Shown here: positions 1,653 through 17,968 of the stretch, in pieces | Position numbering within the stretch: the first letter of the stretch is position 1 | Layout: each line of letters begins with the position of its first letter | From: Alistipes sp. | Lineage (GTDB): Bacteria; Bacteroidota; Bacteroidia; Bacteroidales; Rikenellaceae | Direction: 5' to 3' | NCBI GenBank assembly: GCA_017631255.1 | Contig: JAGBTP010000062.1 | Span: 1-37,047 of the forward strand | Length of the DNA stretch: 37,047 nt | Program-made: the position numbers and the translations under genes | The notes under the pieces: model-generated | Told to the model about the DNA's origin: nothing | The model's database searches: none | The model's input: only the letters and a program-made list of their open reading frames with translations

Positions 1653-4142
1653 ATGCCGATGATTCTGAGCCGAGTCATAAAGATAGTCTTCGCAGTTGCC
1701 ACAGCGCTATGCAGCATTATGGCCGCCGCTGCGCAGGATTACGACTACGACTACCGCCTCTACAAATACTACGACGAGGAGGAGAGTCTACCACTACCCG
1801 CCGACTCCATATTCACCGCATCGCACAGCTACAACCTACTAACACTCAAGGCATATAACGCCAACTACGCCCTTTCAAACTACGGTTTCAGGCCTCGAGG
1901 CAGAGAGCAAGACGAGGAGGTACACTTAGTGGGTGGCATCGTACTCGACCGCTACTCCGCCACAAACCTTATGACACTCGGCATAAGGCAAGATAGATAC
2001 ACGGGCATAGGCCACACAAGCAGCGATGCACCGAGCACAAATCTTGCCATATCGGGAGCCACCATCGCCACCTATGATTTCCGCCTCGGCCTTGAGCGCG
2101 ACAAAACCTACGAGCGGCAGATGGTGCGAGGCGAGTTTTCGGGTCGCGGTTATACTGCTGGCATCAGCCACCGTGCCACTTGGAAGCCCGCACGCAACGG
2201 CATACGCCTCGACGACGACTGGAGCATCACCCACTACGCCCGCCTGCGTACGGGTCGAGACCTCCACATCGACGCCCTCCACACCAACAGCCTCAACCTT
2301 GCCGCCGAGCTCTCGCGCACCACACGCCGCAGCGGCATAAGCATCATTGCGATGCTACCCTACTCCGAGCGCGCCGAAAGACAGTACTCCTATGCCGAGG
2401 CCTTCGCCCTTACGGGCAACAATCTCTACAATCCATCGTGGGGTTTCCAGAACGGTAAAATGCGTAACTCACGCGTATTCAGATACCTATCGCCCGAGGT
2501 CATAGCCCTCTGGGACTATCGCCTCAGCGCCGCCACCACGCTCCGCCTCGCCGCCGACATAGGCATCAAAATGCGCTCCACCTCGGCACTCGCCTGGTAC
2601 GACGCCCCTACGCCTATGCCCGACAACTACCACTACCTACCCTCATACGCAAACGACGCCAGCCGCCCCGAGGTGACCTCGGCGTGGACGACGAACAACA
2701 CCGCCTACACGCAGATTAATTGGGACGACCTCTACCACACCAACGCCCTGCAAAGCGATGGCCACGCGCGCTATGCCGTCGACCTGAGACGCGAGAATAT
2801 CACACATACCGCCGCGTCGGCCCAGCTCGAGAGTCGCATCGGCGCAATCCTCCTCAGCGGCAGCATCATACTCGACTACACCACCACGCGCCACTTCAAG
2901 GTTATGGAGGACCTCCTCGGTGCCGACCACATCATAGACCTCGACTATTACAATAACGATGACAACACCTATAACTCCCACAGGCAGAACGATCTACGCC
3001 ACCCCGATAGAGTTGTCCACGAGGGCGACCGCTACGCCTATGACTATCGCTTGAGCACCCTACGCGCATCGCTCCACGCCAGCCTCCTCTGGCATTACGA
3101 TGCAGGCTCGCTAAGTGCCGCCGCAGCCATCGCCACCGAAAGCATCGAGCGTCGTGGTTACTTCGAGAAGGAGCTCTTCCCTGGCAGCGGCTCCTACGGC
3201 AGGTCGGGCAGCAAGATTCTGAGCCCCTACCGCCTCGCTCTCGCTTGGCGCCACAACATCGACATCCACACCTTCGGCCTCAGCGCAATACTTAGCGGCG
3301 AGAGCCCCGATGCGAAAGACATCTTCCTACAACCCGAATACAACAATCGCAAAATCAGCGATATAGACCTACGCACCACCCTTGCATTTGAGGCCACATA
3401 TAACCTAAGCCTCGGCGACAGACTGCGCCTCGAGAGCTCGCTCTTTGCCTTCTCGACCTTCAACGGCAGCCGCACCACGCGCCACTACGACAACCTCGCC
3501 CGCACCTATGTCAACTGCTCCGTTCGGGGCATCGACTACACCAACACAGGCCTCGAGCTTAGCGCCAGCATCGCGTGGACGCAGCGCCTCCACTCCACTA
3601 TCACCGCCACAGCTATGGCCTGCCGCTACACCGACGACGCCAGCGTAGCGCTATACTCCGATGCCGACAACACCCTCCTTTCGCTCTCACGCGCCACAAT
3701 GCGGGGCCACAACATCGGCACACCCGAGGTGGCCATCTATGGTGATGTGGAGTACTCGCGCGCGGGGTGGCAGCTACGCGCTGCGGTGACATATTGTGGC
3801 CTGAGGTATGTAACACCCTCGTTTGTGCGTCGCAGCGAGCGCGTGTTAAACATAGCCTCATCGGACGAACACCGCACGATGCTTACCGCGCAGCAGCGCC
3901 TCAGCGATGTGGCCACCATAGACCTCTACATCCGCAAGATATTCCACCTCAAGAGGGTGAACATCAACATCGACTTTTCGGTGCGCAACCTATTGGGCAG
4001 CAGCGCTGTACAGCGTGGCTACGAGCAGGATAGGATCGTCGTCGTCACCCAGCAACATAGGCAACATATCGAGCCTCTTGCCGACCGTCTACTATACAGC
4101 TATCCCCGCACCTACTACCTCAGCGCCACCATCTGGTTTTAG
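1653..4142 (+). CDS. Large outer-membrane beta-barrel protein, TonB-receptor-like barrel without recognisable plug
   Basis: 829 residues. The N terminus is a signal peptide (basic start, hydrophobic stretch VIKIVFAVATALCSIMAAAAQ, cleavage near residue 27). The mature protein is rich in alternating aromatic/polar strands and Tyr/Asp/Asn loops, and ends in YYLSATIWF. A terminal aromatic residue on a final strand is typical of outer-membrane barrels and of TonB-dependent receptors in this phylum. I see no carboxypeptidase-like N-terminal domain and no plug motif; the start goes nearly straight into barrel-like sequence. No SusD-like partner is adjacent, so a classical polysaccharide-utilisation pair is not supported. 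The substrate is unknown. A second ATG at 1659 is equally compatible with the signal peptide. The barrel assignment is confident; transport function is inference. Confidence 0.75.
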   Translation: MPMILSRVIKIVFAVATALCSIMAAAAQDYDYDYRLYKYYDEEESLPLPADSIFTASHSYNLLTLKAYNANYALSNYGFRPRGREQDEEVHLVGGIVLDRYSATNLMTLGIRQDRYTGIGHTSSDAPSTNLAISGATIATYDFRLGLERDKTYERQMVRGEFSGRGYTAGISHRATWKPARNGIRLDDDWSITHYARLRTGRDLHIDALHTNSLNLAAELSRTTRRSGISIIAMLPYSERAERQYSYAEAFALTGNNLYNPSWGFQNGKMRNSRVFRYLSPEVIALWDYRLSAATTLRLAADIGIKMRSTSALAWYDAPTPMPDNYHYLPSYANDASRPEVTSAWTTNNTAYTQINWDDLYHTNALQSDGHARYAVDLRRENITHTAASAQLESRIGAILLSGSIILDYTTTRHFKVMEDLLGADHIIDLDYYNNDDNTYNSHRQNDLRHPDRVVHEGDRYAYDYRLSTLRASLHASLLWHYDAGSLSAAAAIATESIERRGYFEKELFPGSGSYGRSGSKILSPYRLALAWRHNIDIHTFGLSAILSGESPDAKDIFLQPEYNNRKISDIDLRTTLAFEATYNLSLGDRLRLESSLFAFSTFNGSRTTRHYDNLARTYVNCSVRGIDYTNTGLELSASIAWTQRLHSTITATAMACRYTDDASVALYSDADNTLLSLSRATMRGHNIGTPEVAIYGDVEYSRAGWQLRAAVTYCGLRYVTPSFVRRSERVLNIASSDEHRTMLTAQQRLSDVATIDLYIRKIFHLKRVNINIDFSVRNLLGSSAVQRGYEQDRIVVVTQQHRQHIEPLADRLLYSYPRTYYLSATIWF

Positions 4143-4275: not shown

Positions 4276-6198
4276 ATGAGTTGCTATAAAAAACATATGC
4301 CCGAAATTGGGCGAGGATGCTGCTTCTGCGACTGTGGCGACGAGATGGATGCCATAGCTGTGGAGGATTGCTACAAGCTCCACGAAACCAACTGGCTCGA
4401 GGAGTATCCCGACAACATACCTACCGATATATTCGAGGTGCGATTCAAGAATACGCGTCGCTCCTACTACCAGAATATCAACAACCTCGACCTCAAACGA
4501 GGCGACATCGTAGCCGTAGAGGCACAGCCGGGTCACGACATCGGCATCATCTCGCTTACGGGCGATATGGTGGCTAAGCAGATGCGTCGCGTGGGCTTCA
4601 ACCCCCACAATGGCGAGTTTAAGAAGATTTACCGCAAGGCCCGCCCCTACGACATCGAGCGCTGGCAGGAGGCCATAGCCCTCGAGCACGAGACGATGAT
4701 CGCATCGCGACAGATTGCCGCCGATATGGGTCTGAATATGAAGATTGGCGATGTGGAGTATCAGGGCGATAAGCTCAAGGCTATCTTCTACTACATTGCC
4801 GACGAGCGTGTCGACTTCCGTGAGCTTATCAAGGTCTTTGCTGAGAGGTTCCATATCCGCATCGAGATGAAGCAGATTGGTGCGCGTCAGGAGGCGGGAC
4901 GCATCGGTGGCATCGGTGCCTGCGGCAGGGAGCTGTGCTGCTCATCGTGGATGTCGAGCTTCTCGAGCGTCACGACCAATGCAGCGCGTATGCAGGAGAT
5001 ATCGCTCAACCCACAGAAACTTGCAGGCCAGTGCTCGAAGTTGAAGTGCTGCCTTATGTACGAGTACGATGTATATGCCGACGCACGCCGGGCACTACCA
5101 CGCCTGCGTGAACCATTGCAGGCACTCGATGGCGAGTACTACCTCATCAAGATTGACCCACTGGCGGGTACAATGTCGTTCTCGACAAGCAAGAATACCA
5201 TCGTCAACCTCACCACACTACCTATCAGCCGTGTGAAGGAGATTATCGCCCTCAACCGTGCGGGCGAGAAGGTCGAGTCGCTACTCGGCAGTGCTGGCGA
5301 GGAGCGCGTCGAGGAGCCTACATACCGCAGCGAGGAGGATAGCATCACCCGCTTCGACAATAAGCGCAAGCGCAACAAGCGTAACAAGCGCAAGGGCGAC
5401 AAGGCTTCTAAGGGTGAGGCGAGAGCCAACGACAACGAGAGAGGCGACGAGCAGGGCGCAGCAGAGCCTAAGGCACACAATGGCGACGAGGCTAAGGAGC
5501 AGCGTGAGGGTCGTGAGAATCGTGAAGGTCGTGAACCAAGAGAGCAGCGCGAGGGTCGTGAAGGTCGTGAACCACGCGAGGGTCGTGAAGGTCGTGAGAA
5601 ACGAGATAATCGTGAGCCACGCGAAAACAGAGAACCACGCGAGGGTCGTGAGGGTCGTGAGGGCAGACAGCGCGATAAGCGTCAGCGTCCACCACGCAAT
5701 GAGCAGGCTAAGGGCGAGACCGCACCAGCTACTACTGAGGCTACTACCGAGAACTCTACACATCAGGCCGAGGCACGCACCGAGCGCGTAGAGCGTAATA
5801 GCGACCGCAACGAGAGAGGCGAGCGCACTGAGCGCAACGGTGAGCGTGGTGACCGCAATGAGAGAGGCGAGCGCAATGAGCGCAATGAGAGAGGCGACCG
5901 TCGCAACAATCGTCGCAACAATCGTCGTGGTGGCAAACCTGATGGTGAGCATCGTGAGGGTCAGGAGAATAGAGAGCCTCGCGAAAACCGTGAGCCACGA
6001 GAGAAGCGCGAGCCAAGGGAGGGTCGTGAGAATCGTGAGCCCAGGGAGCAGCGAGAGCCTCGTGAACCACGCGAGAATCGTGAGCCCAGGGAGCAGCGAG
6101 AGCCTCGTGAACCACGCGAGAATCGTGAGCCCAGGGAGCAGCGAGAGCCTCGTGAGCCACGCGAGAATCATGAGCCAAAGGAGCCACGACAGGAGTAG
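4276..6198 (+). CDS. ricT: RicT-like PSP1-domain protein with a long Arg/Glu repeat tail
   Basis: 640 residues. Residues about 50-330 are the PSP1/RicT core (RGDIVAVEAQPGHDIGII at 75-92). The conserved cysteine region includes C216, C221, C222, C253, C258 and C259 in GACGRELCCSSW and GQCSKLKCC. In Bacillus, RicT (YaaT) works with RicA and RicF as an Fe-S complex that affects RNA processing; no RicA or RicF gene is in this window. From about residue 345 to 640 the protein is low complexity: a Lys/Arg patch, then Arg-Glu-Pro/Gly/Asn repeats, probably disordered and able to bind RNA or acidic partners (inference). The tail is encoded partly by 45-bp tandem repeats. A near-match promoter, TATCTTTA, lies at 4226-4233. 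It heads a tight operon with gldH, trmB and rlmD. Confidence 0.88.
   Translation: MSCYKKHMPEIGRGCCFCDCGDEMDAIAVEDCYKLHETNWLEEYPDNIPTDIFEVRFKNTRRSYYQNINNLDLKRGDIVAVEAQPGHDIGIISLTGDMVAKQMRRVGFNPHNGEFKKIYRKARPYDIERWQEAIALEHETMIASRQIAADMGLNMKIGDVEYQGDKLKAIFYYIADERVDFRELIKVFAERFHIRIEMKQIGARQEAGRIGGIGACGRELCCSSWMSSFSSVTTNAARMQEISLNPQKLAGQCSKLKCCLMYEYDVYADARRALPRLREPLQALDGEYYLIKIDPLAGTMSFSTSKNTIVNLTTLPISRVKEIIALNRAGEKVESLLGSAGEERVEEPTYRSEEDSITRFDNKRKRNKRNKRKGDKASKGEARANDNERGDEQGAAEPKAHNGDEAKEQREGRENREGREPREQREGREGREPREGREGREKRDNREPRENREPREGREGREGRQRDKRQRPPRNEQAKGETAPATTEATTENSTHQAEARTERVERNSDRNERGERTERNGERGDRNERGERNERNERGDRRNNRRNNRRGGKPDGEHREGQENREPRENREPREKREPREGRENREPREQREPREPRENREPREQREPREPRENREPREQREPREPRENHEPKEPRQE
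6028..6162 (+). repeat. 45-bp tandem repeat, three copies, inside the ricT tail
   Basis: Three head-to-tail units at 6028-6072, 6073-6117 and 6118-6162, each encoding 15 residues of the type ENREPREQREPREPR. They are almost identical; the third has a G for A change near its end. A degenerate fourth unit follows. Looser Arg-Glu-Gly repeats lie at about 5500-5670. Such in-frame repeats can gain or lose units by slippage and change tail length. Confidence 0.9.
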
Positions 6199-15141: not shown

Positions 15142-16341
15142 ATGTTTAGGATTATGAGAAAACTTCTACTTTGCCTGCTAATGGTTGCCACAACAACCTT
15201 AGCCACAGCACAACGCGACGAGAGGCCTATGCGCTGGCAAGGCTTCGAGACCAATCGCTTCTGGGATAATTGGGAGGTATCGGTGGGCGGCGGCAACTCC
15301 CTACTCCTCGTATCGTCAAAGCTAAACCGTGAACCTGGTAAGTTCCTCGACCGCAACGGCTGGAATGCCAACATAGGCGCCACCAAGTGGTTTACGCCGA
15401 TAATCGGTATGCGCCTCAAGGTTGATGCGGGTCAGTTCCGCAACTTCTCCTTCGACAGCGCACGCTACGGCAATGGTGCCTTCAAGACGCCATACATCTA
15501 TGCTCACGGCGACATCCTCATCAATATGTCGAACTGGATAGGTGGCTACAACCCCGACCGCTTCTATTCGGCCATAACATATATGGGCTTCGGCTACACC
15601 GCAATGTCGTGGACTAGCGCCTCGGCAGGGTCCTACAATGGCGAGTTCGCATTCGCATCGGGCTGGCTCAGTAAGTTCCGCGTGGCACCGCAGTGGGACA
15701 TAGAGCTCGACCTGCGCTCGTGGCTCTTCTCTGAGAAGTCACTCCCCGAGGAGATACAGAGCGGTGGCCGCTACGCCTTTGCCACCTCCGTATCGGTTGG
15801 CGTGGCATACCGCTTCAAGCAGCGCAGCTGGGAGGTGGCATACCCCGAAGTGGAGGTCGACGGCTACATCGCTGCCATCGCAGCACTTGAGGAGCGCATC
15901 ATACTACGCGACAGCCAGCTTGGCACTATGAATCAGCAGGTTGCAGCGCTCCAGAGCAAGAATCAGAGCCTCGAGGCCGACATCGCAACTATGCAGCGTG
16001 CCGAGGTGGCGCATGAGCTCGTAGCACCCGAATGTGTAGCCTTCTTCACCATCGGCGAGGCCACCATCACCGACTATGCAAGGGCGACGCTCGAGAACTA
16101 TGTCGAGCAGATTGACAACTGCGACTACCCCATCACCGTCGTGGGCTATGCCGACAAGGAGACGGGCAGCACACAGCGCAACGAGCAGCTATCCAAGGAG
16201 CGTGCCGAGTGCGTAGCACAGTGGCTCATCGCAAACGGCATAGCCGCAGAGCGCATCACAACGAAATGGGTAGGCGGCAGCGAGGCGGCCTTCGCCAAGC
16301 CAAGCACCCCAACTGTCAACCGCTGCGTCATCATCAAGTAG
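15142..16341 (+). CDS. OmpA-family outer-membrane protein
   Basis: 399 residues. A signal peptide is followed by TAQ/RDE cleavage near residue 23; an alternative start at 15154 (MRKLL...) gives an equally good signal. Residues about 45-235 are an eight-stranded-type beta-barrel with aromatic strand ends (SVGVAYRFKQR closes it). A short heptad-like helix (about 245-285, AALEERIILRDSQLGTMNQQ onward) links to a C-terminal OmpA domain. That domain has the expected FTIGEATITDYARATLENY start and VVGYADKETGSTQRNEQLSKERAECV, with the Asp/Arg region that binds peptidoglycan diaminopimelate. It anchors the outer membrane to the cell wall. It is convergent with the radical SAM gene. Confidence 0.9.
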   Translation: MFRIMRKLLLCLLMVATTTLATAQRDERPMRWQGFETNRFWDNWEVSVGGGNSLLLVSSKLNREPGKFLDRNGWNANIGATKWFTPIIGMRLKVDAGQFRNFSFDSARYGNGAFKTPYIYAHGDILINMSNWIGGYNPDRFYSAITYMGFGYTAMSWTSASAGSYNGEFAFASGWLSKFRVAPQWDIELDLRSWLFSEKSLPEEIQSGGRYAFATSVSVGVAYRFKQRSWEVAYPEVEVDGYIAAIAALEERIILRDSQLGTMNQQVAALQSKNQSLEADIATMQRAEVAHELVAPECVAFFTIGEATITDYARATLENYVEQIDNCDYPITVVGYADKETGSTQRNEQLSKERAECVAQWLIANGIAAERITTKWVGGSEAAFAKPSTPTVNRCVIIK

Positions 16342-16427: not shown

Positions 16428-17504
16428 CTATTTCAACATCTTATAGTGGCAGTACATCAGTCGCCCCTCGTCGTCCCTAAGGTGCATACCGCCGCCACGG
16501 CAGAACTCCCACACCTTGCAGTCGGCACACTCGTCGGTGCGGGTCCACTCTCTGTTACGGAACTTATCGAAGCGGTTTTGCCACACATCCCAGAAGCTAT
16601 CGCGATATATGTTACCCTGCGCATAGTTACCACGCACGCTGGTGCAGCCTGAAATGTCGCCATTGACGCGTATCGAGGCCACCGTAACACCCGCATTGCA
16701 CATATAGAAGTGGTCACGCACCTCGGTCTCGTAGCCACCCAAGAAGCCCTCGCAGGCGTAGTTGAGCTCGATGCGACCCTCGCTGCGTGTCTGGCGTATG
16801 AACTCCATCAGCGCACGGAAATTTTCGGCATCGAGGTGCAGCGACTCATCGCGCTTAGCCCTGCCCGCAGGAAATACCGAGAAGATACGCCAATGGGCAA
16901 TGCCCTCACTAATGAGAAACTCCTTCCACTCCCTAAGGCGTGGCATAAGGGCGGGCGTGACACAGGTGATAACATCGTATGCAAGGCCCTCGACCTCACG
17001 AATATAGCTGATAGCCTTGCGTGCGCGCTCGAAGCTCTCGCCGCTCTGGCGGATGTGGTTGTGTATATCCTCGAAGCCATCGAAGCTCACCGACACGCTC
17101 CTAAGTCCCGCATCAAGGAGTGCGTGCAGCCTCTCACGCGTGAGGCTCATACCGTTGGTCACCATACCCCACTTATAGCCTCGTCGCATAACCTCACGCC
17201 CCGCCTCCTCGAGGTCACGACGCACCAGCACCTCGCCACCCGAAAAGATGAGCAGCACATCCGCTGGGTTGACATTGGGCGTAACCTCCTTGTCGAGCAC
17301 GGCAAGGAAGTCTTCGAGGGGCATATCGCCCTCCGAGGCGTCCATACGGCAGTCGCTGCCGCAGTGCCTACACCTCAGATTACAACGAAGCGTACACTCC
17401 CAAAAGAGTGTACGCAACCTATGACGCTCGACCACGCCATCGTAGATGCCCTTAAAGAGCTTCAGGCCGATGTACTTACGCAGTCCTAATCGTTTACCCT
17501 TCAC
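16428..17504 (-). CDS. Radical SAM/SPASM enzyme of the rSAM/lipoprotein system
   Basis: 358 residues. The radical SAM cluster motif is C41-NLR-C45-RH-C48, inside the Cys-rich segment WECTLRCNLRCRHCGSDC. The SAM-binding FSGGEV follows near residue 90. The C-terminal third is a SPASM-type region with many cysteines (MCNAG, SGCTS, DECADCKVWEFC, MYCHY) that would bind auxiliary Fe-S clusters. SPASM enzymes related to PqqE and AnSME usually modify peptides or proteins. From memory, NCBI/TIGRFAM describes a Bacteroidetes family of this type paired with a small lipoprotein. Here the gene starts 12 nt after the stop of exactly such a lipoprotein on the same strand, so it probably acts on it (inference). 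The chemistry is not known. Confidence 0.85.
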   Translation of the reverse strand: MKGKRLGLRKYIGLKLFKGIYDGVVERHRLRTLFWECTLRCNLRCRHCGSDCRMDASEGDMPLEDFLAVLDKEVTPNVNPADVLLIFSGGEVLVRRDLEEAGREVMRRGYKWGMVTNGMSLTRERLHALLDAGLRSVSVSFDGFEDIHNHIRQSGESFERARKAISYIREVEGLAYDVITCVTPALMPRLREWKEFLISEGIAHWRIFSVFPAGRAKRDESLHLDAENFRALMEFIRQTRSEGRIELNYACEGFLGGYETEVRDHFYMCNAGVTVASIRVNGDISGCTSVRGNYAQGNIYRDSFWDVWQNRFDKFRNREWTRTDECADCKVWEFCRGGGMHLRDDEGRLMYCHYKMLK

Positions 17505-17516
17505 CGCTGTGAATGT

Positions 17517-17870
17517 TTACTCCTCGGTAGCGGCACTCTCCTTCGCCGCCTCCTTCGCTGCCTCCTCAGCCTTAATCTCCTCGACGATTGCCATAGCCTC
17601 CTCGTTCGACAGAGGCTTCACGAGACTACCGTCAGGGAAGCGCACAGCCTCCGCATCAGCCGACTGAGTAGCTCCCTCCTCAACAGGACGCACAACCTGA
17701 CCATCAGGGAATGGCACGCCGTACATAAGCATCACGCGTGGATCCTCCTCCTCGGATACTATATCCTGACCCTTCTTATCCTCGCTCTTGGTCACCTTCT
17801 TAGTGCCGCAGCAGGCCGTAGCCGAAAAGCCCAGGAGAGCCAAGAGTGCTATTTTCCACTTAGTATTCAT
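17517..17870 (-). CDS. Small lipoprotein with two FPDG repeats, putative substrate of the adjacent radical SAM enzyme
   Basis: 117 residues from ATG 17870. Longer upstream starts would place the signal peptide inside the protein and lie beyond the promoter. The lipobox is SATAC, with acceptor C20 followed directly by C21 (ACCGTKK). After a charged linker come two related motifs of the form FPDGxxVxP: residues 54-62 (FPDGQVVRP, preceded by MYGVP) and 78-86 (FPDGSLVKP). The C terminus is an acidic Ala/Glu/Lys helix. It is the first gene of the unit, 12 nt upstream of the radical SAM gene, and has its own promoter. The repeated FPDG motifs are the obvious candidate modification sites, but this is inference. 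Function unknown. Confidence 0.85.
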   Translation of the reverse strand: MNTKWKIALLALLGFSATACCGTKKVTKSEDKKGQDIVSEEEDPRVMLMYGVPFPDGQVVRPVEEGATQSADAEAVRFPDGSLVKPLSNEEAMAIVEEIKAEEAAKEAAKESAATEE

Positions 17871-17909
17871 AGTTGGTAAGTTTATCTTGTGTGAAACAAA
17901 TACTCCGTA

Positions 17910-17941
17910 CAAATATATGCGTTTTTCCTCGATTTTACAAA
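17910..17941 (-). promoter_or_regulatory. Promoter of the lipoprotein/rSAM unit
   Basis: On the minus strand a -7 TATATTTG (17910-17917 on plus as CAAATATA) lies 20 nt from a TTTG -33 (17938-17941). A second overlapping TATATTTG at 17938-17945 could be an alternative -7. The leader is about 33 nt. Confidence 0.7.
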
Positions 17942-17968
17942 TATAACGCATTTTTTAGGCGTATAGTG

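Follow-up and report, generated by a model that had tools for sequence, protein, structure and literature searches.

What does a radical SAM enzyme do with the small lipoprotein whose gene lies directly upstream of its own? The question is raised by a gene pair on the minus strand of the window (the whole stretch of 37,047 nucleotides of Alistipes sp. DNA that was analysed), for which the original prediction had proposed a substrate and its modifier, made together. The pair was found as placed: coordinates and Pfam bear out a 117-residue lipoprotein encoded 12 nt upstream of a radical SAM enzyme with cysteines C41, C45 and C48 and a SPASM tail (Table 1). Because the neighbour past the enzyme gene, a member of the OmpA family ending at 16341, is convergent, the operon consists of two genes. 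Joint production of a probable substrate and its modifier is thereby supported. The closest named loci to the pair are from Alistipes and Rikenellaceae assemblies, mostly of ruminant gut.

Table 1. Features of the lipoprotein–enzyme pair, with positions in the window.
Feature	Position	Strand	Remarks
Lipoprotein gene	17517-17870	-	117 aa, lipobox Cys at residue 20; predicted substrate
Radical SAM/SPASM enzyme gene	16428-17504	-	358 aa, GTG start; predicted splicease-like modifier
Putative Bacteroides-type promoter	17910-17941	-	TTTG-N20-TATATTTG, upstream of lipoprotein gene
Signal peptide, conserved LG(F/L)S and lipobox Cys20	17811-17870	-	
Predicted splice site M49-Y50-G51-V52-P53 (XYGxP)	17712-17726	-	
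First FPDG motif, FPDGQVVRP	17685-17711	-	directly after YGVP
Second FPDG motif, FPDGSLVKP	17613-17639	-	without YG; not conserved
CxxxCxxC iron-sulfur motif, C41/C45/C48	17361-17384	-	followed by Gly-Ser, common to TIGR04103/TIGR03913 relatives
SPASM domain	16515-16700	-	residues 269-330 by Pfam

A strong promoter had been claimed ahead of the lipoprotein gene. A generic sigma-70 scan of this region returned a 9/12 site at best, but the region does contain a TTTG-N20 element with the downstream box given in Table 1, which we take to be a Bacteroides-type promoter; four such sites occur in the whole window, against 0.18 expected in shuffles.

The family databases, as anticipated, know pairs of this kind (TIGR04133 and TIGR04134), and the enzyme is readily placed: against NCBIfam model TIGR04133 (rSAM_w_lipo) it scores 558.9 bits over residues 8-357 (cut-off 425) and is thus a member. 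NCBIfam grades this model as a hypothetical equivalog and its name carries no chemistry. Pfam recognizes Radical_SAM (66.5 bits) and SPASM (38.0 bits); the conserved SPASM cysteines are residues 269, 287, 326 and 329, with C335 just past the domain. The window enzyme therefore combines the radical SAM CxxxCxxC motif with SPASM, as do enzymes of the PlpX type. On TIGR04103, the family that we take to be IPR026482, it scores 112 bits, no better than on heme-pathway enzymes and short of the cut-off of 725; for this reason we do not file it as a PlpX, but say that it would work like one. A PDB sequence search with the enzyme, less its first residue, returned generic radical SAM relatives alone (best 45.5 bits). 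As read from its sequence, the enzyme carries no evident signal peptide, and modification would thus be cytoplasmic, before export. A full-text literature search found no paper naming TIGR04133 or TIGR04134, nor any with the phrase ‘radical SAM-associated putative lipoprotein’, the NCBIfam title of TIGR04134 (lipo_with_rSAM), in which no chemistry is named either. Within the enzyme gene, at 17390-17415 of the window, there is also an inverted repeat of 11 pairs, its tail terminator-like; it covers the codons leading into CxxxCxxC.

The lipoprotein is less easily assigned. It does not match TIGR04134 at E up to 1 (cut-off 39.8 bits), and its own genome contains no match to that model; TIGR04134 was accordingly dropped as the family of the window lipoprotein. 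Nor does it match anything else in NCBIfam (E up to 1) or in Pfam (E up to 0.1), and in these same searches no Nif11 or NHLP leader was recognisable: the signal peptide occupies the leader's place. What it has in common with TIGR04134 proteins is limited to an LGF-type signal element, the lipid cysteine and a YGxP motif.

The original prediction had taken the FPDG repeat as the target. Both copies are present in the window lipoprotein, but among 33 Alistipes-type partners two copies occur in just 17, while MYGVP occurs in all 33. An alignment of 18 selected Alistipes-type sequences divides the two copies further: P55 and G57 of the first are invariant (18/18), whereas the second is absent from two sequences and altered in others. 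The first FPDG is the tail of the real motif, YGxP, and the second is not conserved. With two copies in only about half of the close relatives and the second lost from some, FPDG was abandoned as the core.

The question then becomes how general YGxP is among enzyme partners. We gathered 147 loci, 141 with an enzyme match, giving 138 distinct enzymes, and picked the partner upstream of each enzyme regardless of motif. Three of the 138 distinct loci were omitted for having under 200 nt upstream; a partner was obtained at 113 of the remaining 135 and not at the other 22. In this motif-blind count YG.P was the top three-residue pattern: of 77 non-redundant upstream partners 62 have it, the runner-up reached 30, and across 60 residue shuffles no pattern exceeded 13. 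By enzyme score, YG.P was present in 89/99 partners at 280 bits or more, 8/10 between 200 and 280 bits, and 1/4 below 200 (L147, a TIGR04133 fragment).

A second tally compared the two strands at the 123 distinct loci with enzymes of at least 200 bits and at least 400 nt upstream. A signal-bearing ORF with YG.P lies near the enzyme on the same strand at 113 of these; on the opposite strand YG.P occurs in 9 of 1110 signal-bearing ORFs, and so at no more than 9 of the 123 loci. Among the ten misses, three do carry a CYGxP ORF (L116, L130 and L086, the last being the same place as L122), three retain YG with altered spacing of the proline (L103, L104 and L127), and one, L072, has its LYGCP in a protein that lacks a signal. 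At the last three (L030, L090 and L110), all TIGR04133 loci, no YG partner was found. The L072 protein (Bacillota, ∼3581-3940), encoded upstream of a TIGR04133-like enzyme, has its LYGCP towards the C-terminus and shows weak, sub-cut-off similarity to ubiquitin (E 0.024).

When 66 diverse partners were aligned, the cysteine was invariant and, besides it, Y, G and P alone reached 90% or more. These 66 come from 74 listed: L001, L049, L117 and L031 were omitted for long N-terminal extensions of the mechanical ORF (L031 has CLYGPM in place of YGxP), and L078, L086, L116 and L130 because the wrong ORF had been chosen. The bodies of the partners differ: TIGR04134 matches 43 of the 66 and CarboxypepD_reg 20, some are of ∼50 aa (51 aa in L102), and the window type represents a further form. 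Common to them are the LGF-type signal-peptide element, the lipid cysteine and Tyr-Gly-x-Pro. Since TIGR04134 matches just 43 of the 66, the motif outlives the scaffold.

Within the motif some positions are free. YGxP often stands right after the lipid cysteine (CYGTP, as in L108), but the distance between cysteine and tyrosine varies from 1 to 85, and a fixed crosslink to the lipid cysteine was dropped on this ground. The residue before the tyrosine (n = 141) is M in 53 cases, E in 25, C in 25, K in 16, V in 10, A in 6, L in 4, and S and N in one each; position +2 accepts at least twelve residues, glycine among them. As these sites had been selected by YG.P, the distance and residue counts are circular, and the frequency of the motif rests on the motif-blind and two-strand tallies. 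Two or three YGxP lipoproteins are found together at 15 of 110 loci. Four further proteins of 237-280 aa (L088:3175-3954, L095:4286-5059, L104 and L165:2529-3371) begin with a signal-like stretch, lack a lipobox, and show AQYG (AQYGAP in L088 and L095) where the signal should end; in L088 and L095 (enzyme on the plus strand), and likewise in L104, they are encoded downstream of the enzyme, while the genome of L165 gave no strong enzyme match.

Partner and enzyme also travel together. Among 295 sampled genomes of the order, 61 pass the TIGR04133 cut-off and 39 that of TIGR04134; 37 of the 39 pass both (Fisher p = 2e-28); the exceptions are G227 and G288, the latter with a 355-bit enzyme. The window type was sought in 61 genomes of the genus with a profile of 18 window-type lipoproteins. 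Matches occurred in 36 (weakest E 2.4e-4), and in all 36 a TIGR04133 match lies 34-370 nt from the end of the best one; none of the 14 genus genomes without an over-cut-off enzyme has a window-type match. Some weak matches to the profile are other lipoproteins, for example in G309, where the match overlaps one to TIGR04134. Two genus assemblies, G303 and G306 (estimated 82% and 85% complete), have a TIGR04134 lipoprotein in which YGxP is kept, and no enzyme was found in either. The expectation that partners always accompany the enzyme thus holds in the main: a partner without an enzyme is uncommon (2 of the 39 TIGR04134 genomes in the order, 2 of 14 among relatives), but at 6 of 15 loci retrieved through TIGR04134 the stretch contains no enzyme, which means that some partners are encoded away from it. 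The pairing of lipoprotein and enzyme is not chance. A plasmid record of Parabacteroides distasonis, L152, likewise carries the pair.

A constant Tyr-Gly recalls the PlpXY splicease. One report gives XYG as the PlpXY site, with MYG and LYG as natural sites and no need for the RiPP leader; of 16 FtsZ tags, built on PIRPxYGLPI and AVAAGYGVVFP, PlpXY accepted two, both GYGLPI in longer context, and did not accept the other 14 at the places tried, among them other GYGLPI forms, two LYGLPI and two GYGVVFP (PMC10533398). The two tag designs appear to derive from PlpA2 and PlpA3. PlpX belongs to IPR026482 and works together with the RRE protein PlpY (PMC11002830). The window site, LMYGVPFPDG, resembles the PlpXY cores and carries their XYG as MYG; the lipoprotein is the predicted substrate. 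The two systems are thus alike in having a radical SAM/SPASM enzyme and an XYG site, in the YGxP of the accepted tags and of a Nostoc precursor, and in the sister-group position and shared residues of the enzymes described below. They differ in that the window substrate would be an exported lipoprotein lacking a Nif11/NHLP leader, and in the TIGR04103 score, which is far below cut-off.

Kinship of the enzymes was addressed with a tree of 60 SPASM rows. The 43 rows on the TIGR04133 side, which take in a Treponema member and L072, group with eight TIGR04103/TIGR03913 relatives, and a split of 99/96 parts these 51 rows from nine others (MftC, PqqE, NirJ, TIGR04053, TIGR04347, two Paenibacillus enzymes and two distant rows of the order). 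MftC and PqqE, SPASM enzymes that act on peptide tyrosine, were sampled once each and fall outside the group on long branches. Both groups share G49-S50 (after the third cysteine), T180, W205 and E259, which are rare in those outgroups. The tree is limited: outgroups are few, branches are long, and two of the long-branch joins are suspect. Within it, TIGR04133 is the sister group of TIGR04103 and not a member of it.

Partners in the sister group are instructive. A plasmid-record search with the window enzyme, less its first residue, led to an enzyme of Nostoc that scores 853 bits on TIGR04103 and adjoins a Nif11 precursor ending ALYGLPPELF; YG is missing from two more precursors further along that record, one of the Nif11 and one of the NHLP type. 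A 71-aa gene stands in PlpY's place and is PlpY-like by position alone. Used as a tblastn query (71 residues, E up to 1, an insensitive search), this Nostoc protein matched itself alone, so that no PlpY-like RRE gene was found in the collected loci; the window operon has no third gene. YG partners were identified for five of the eight sister-group rows (Nostoc, Agathobacter, L142 and two DUF1843 rows), that of Agathobacter, with MYGTG, being an unannotated ORF; for L143, L144 and L159 none was convincing. The TIGR03913/DUF1843 ‘GDL motif’ systems are close kin of TIGR04103, and the DUF1843 peptides encoded next to TIGR03913-type enzymes (L151, L153) have an xY[G/A/M] motif close to the N-terminus, as YG in three of six and YA or YM in the other three. 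Unlike the window lipoprotein they are small peptides, with no lipobox and no constant YGxP. L142 encodes, at 4503-5147, a 214-aa protein with six terminal KYGYP repeats 14-15 residues apart, which looks like a multi-site substrate; it lies downstream of a radical SAM gene (3013-4053) that is TIGR03913/TIGR04103-like.

From these comparisons we infer a reaction, an order of events and a role. Reaction at Tyr-Gly is the more likely because Y, G and P are constant and FPDG only partly so, and splicing fits because the residue before the tyrosine varies while the glycine does not. Probably, then, a splicease-like enzyme excises part of Tyr50 from the backbone of the lipoprotein made with it; the crosslink or epimerisation at Asp-Gly or Val-x-Pro of the original prediction gives way to this. 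The cytoplasmic enzyme would meet the unfolded pre-lipoprotein and recognize the signal-peptide region together with YGxP, with Pro53 helping recognition. It would act at Xaa-Tyr-Gly, here Met49-Tyr50-Gly51, and cut tyramine out at Tyr50: the outcome for PlpX-type spliceases is loss of C8H9NO and a ketoamide product. The spliced protein would then be exported, lipidated and anchored, presenting its ketoamide near the membrane; in CYGxP forms Xaa would be the lipid-bearing cysteine itself. From ketoamide chemistry one may guess at a membrane-anchored inhibitor of proteases, or a covalent trap for them. Counting against a splicease are the failure of the search to find a PlpY-like helper nearby, the low TIGR04103 score, and the relatives without a YG partner.

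SPASM enzymes frequently form crosslinks, and the tyrosine might instead be joined within the YGxP turn to, say, the proline or the preceding residue, as a cyclophane, ether or thioether. Conservation of the proline at +3, at 90% or more, means that it could be the crosslink partner, and in L142 five of the six KYGYP repeats have a cysteine directly after them. Yet most crosslinks are disfavoured by the varying Cys-Tyr distance and by the want of any constant second side chain but proline, with position +2 open even to glycine; moreover, sister-group partners keep YG without the proline (MYGTG in L150, PYGVAI in L153), and the nearest supported kin include a splicease family. We consider a crosslink unlikely. 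Somewhat less probable again is another change at the tyrosine or glycine, be it alpha-carbon chemistry, epimerisation, oxidation or cleavage at Tyr-Gly, with XYG recognized but not spliced: a conserved motif does not fix the outcome, and TIGR04133 stands beside TIGR04103, not within it, but the +1 glycine is kept, just as in the splicease XYG site, and we found no positive sign of another outcome.

The lipoprotein could, finally, be a helper or regulator of an enzyme whose true target lies elsewhere. Adjacency fits this equally, as do the folded bodies of many partners, such as the CarboxypepD_reg-like ones. However, YGxP lipoproteins are multiplied at some loci, some proteins repeat the motif, and YGxP is nearly the sole constant part, on which grounds the lipoprotein looks like a substrate and a helper role appears very improbable.

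If splicing at Tyr-Gly is correct, a known but rare protein splicing extends to lipoproteins of gut bacteria, and backbone splicing becomes a maturation step for membrane proteins, beyond natural products. For the TIGR04133 clade as a whole, widespread in the order and present in a spirochaete, we see the case as evenly poised: its members may splice lipoproteins before export, endowing the envelope with lipid-anchored, electrophilic ketoamide proteins, with the cysteine of CYGxP turned into a beta-amino acid and many such residues in the six-repeat relative. Several splicings are possible in one precursor, and the beta-residues of spliceotides are said to confer protease inhibition (PMC10373908, PMC11117315); a reactive ketoamide of this sort would then sit on the cell envelope. 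A survey by Scott et al. 2022 is said to have found splicing broadly across bacteria (PMC10373908), and may already include TIGR04133. Because one dipeptide is constant in a changing partner and a splicease family is among the nearest kin, a family over cut-off in about a fifth of the sampled genomes of the order gains a concrete prediction that mass spectrometry can test. Tags for spliceases that dispense with a helper protein might follow.

Some TIGR04133/TIGR04134 clusters contain more than one enzyme: in two congeneric genomes a second, different radical SAM gene lies inside the cluster (L161:3517-4551 and L162:1810-2850), its best NCBIfam match being TIGR04303, with scores of 97 and 105 bits against a cut-off of 400.
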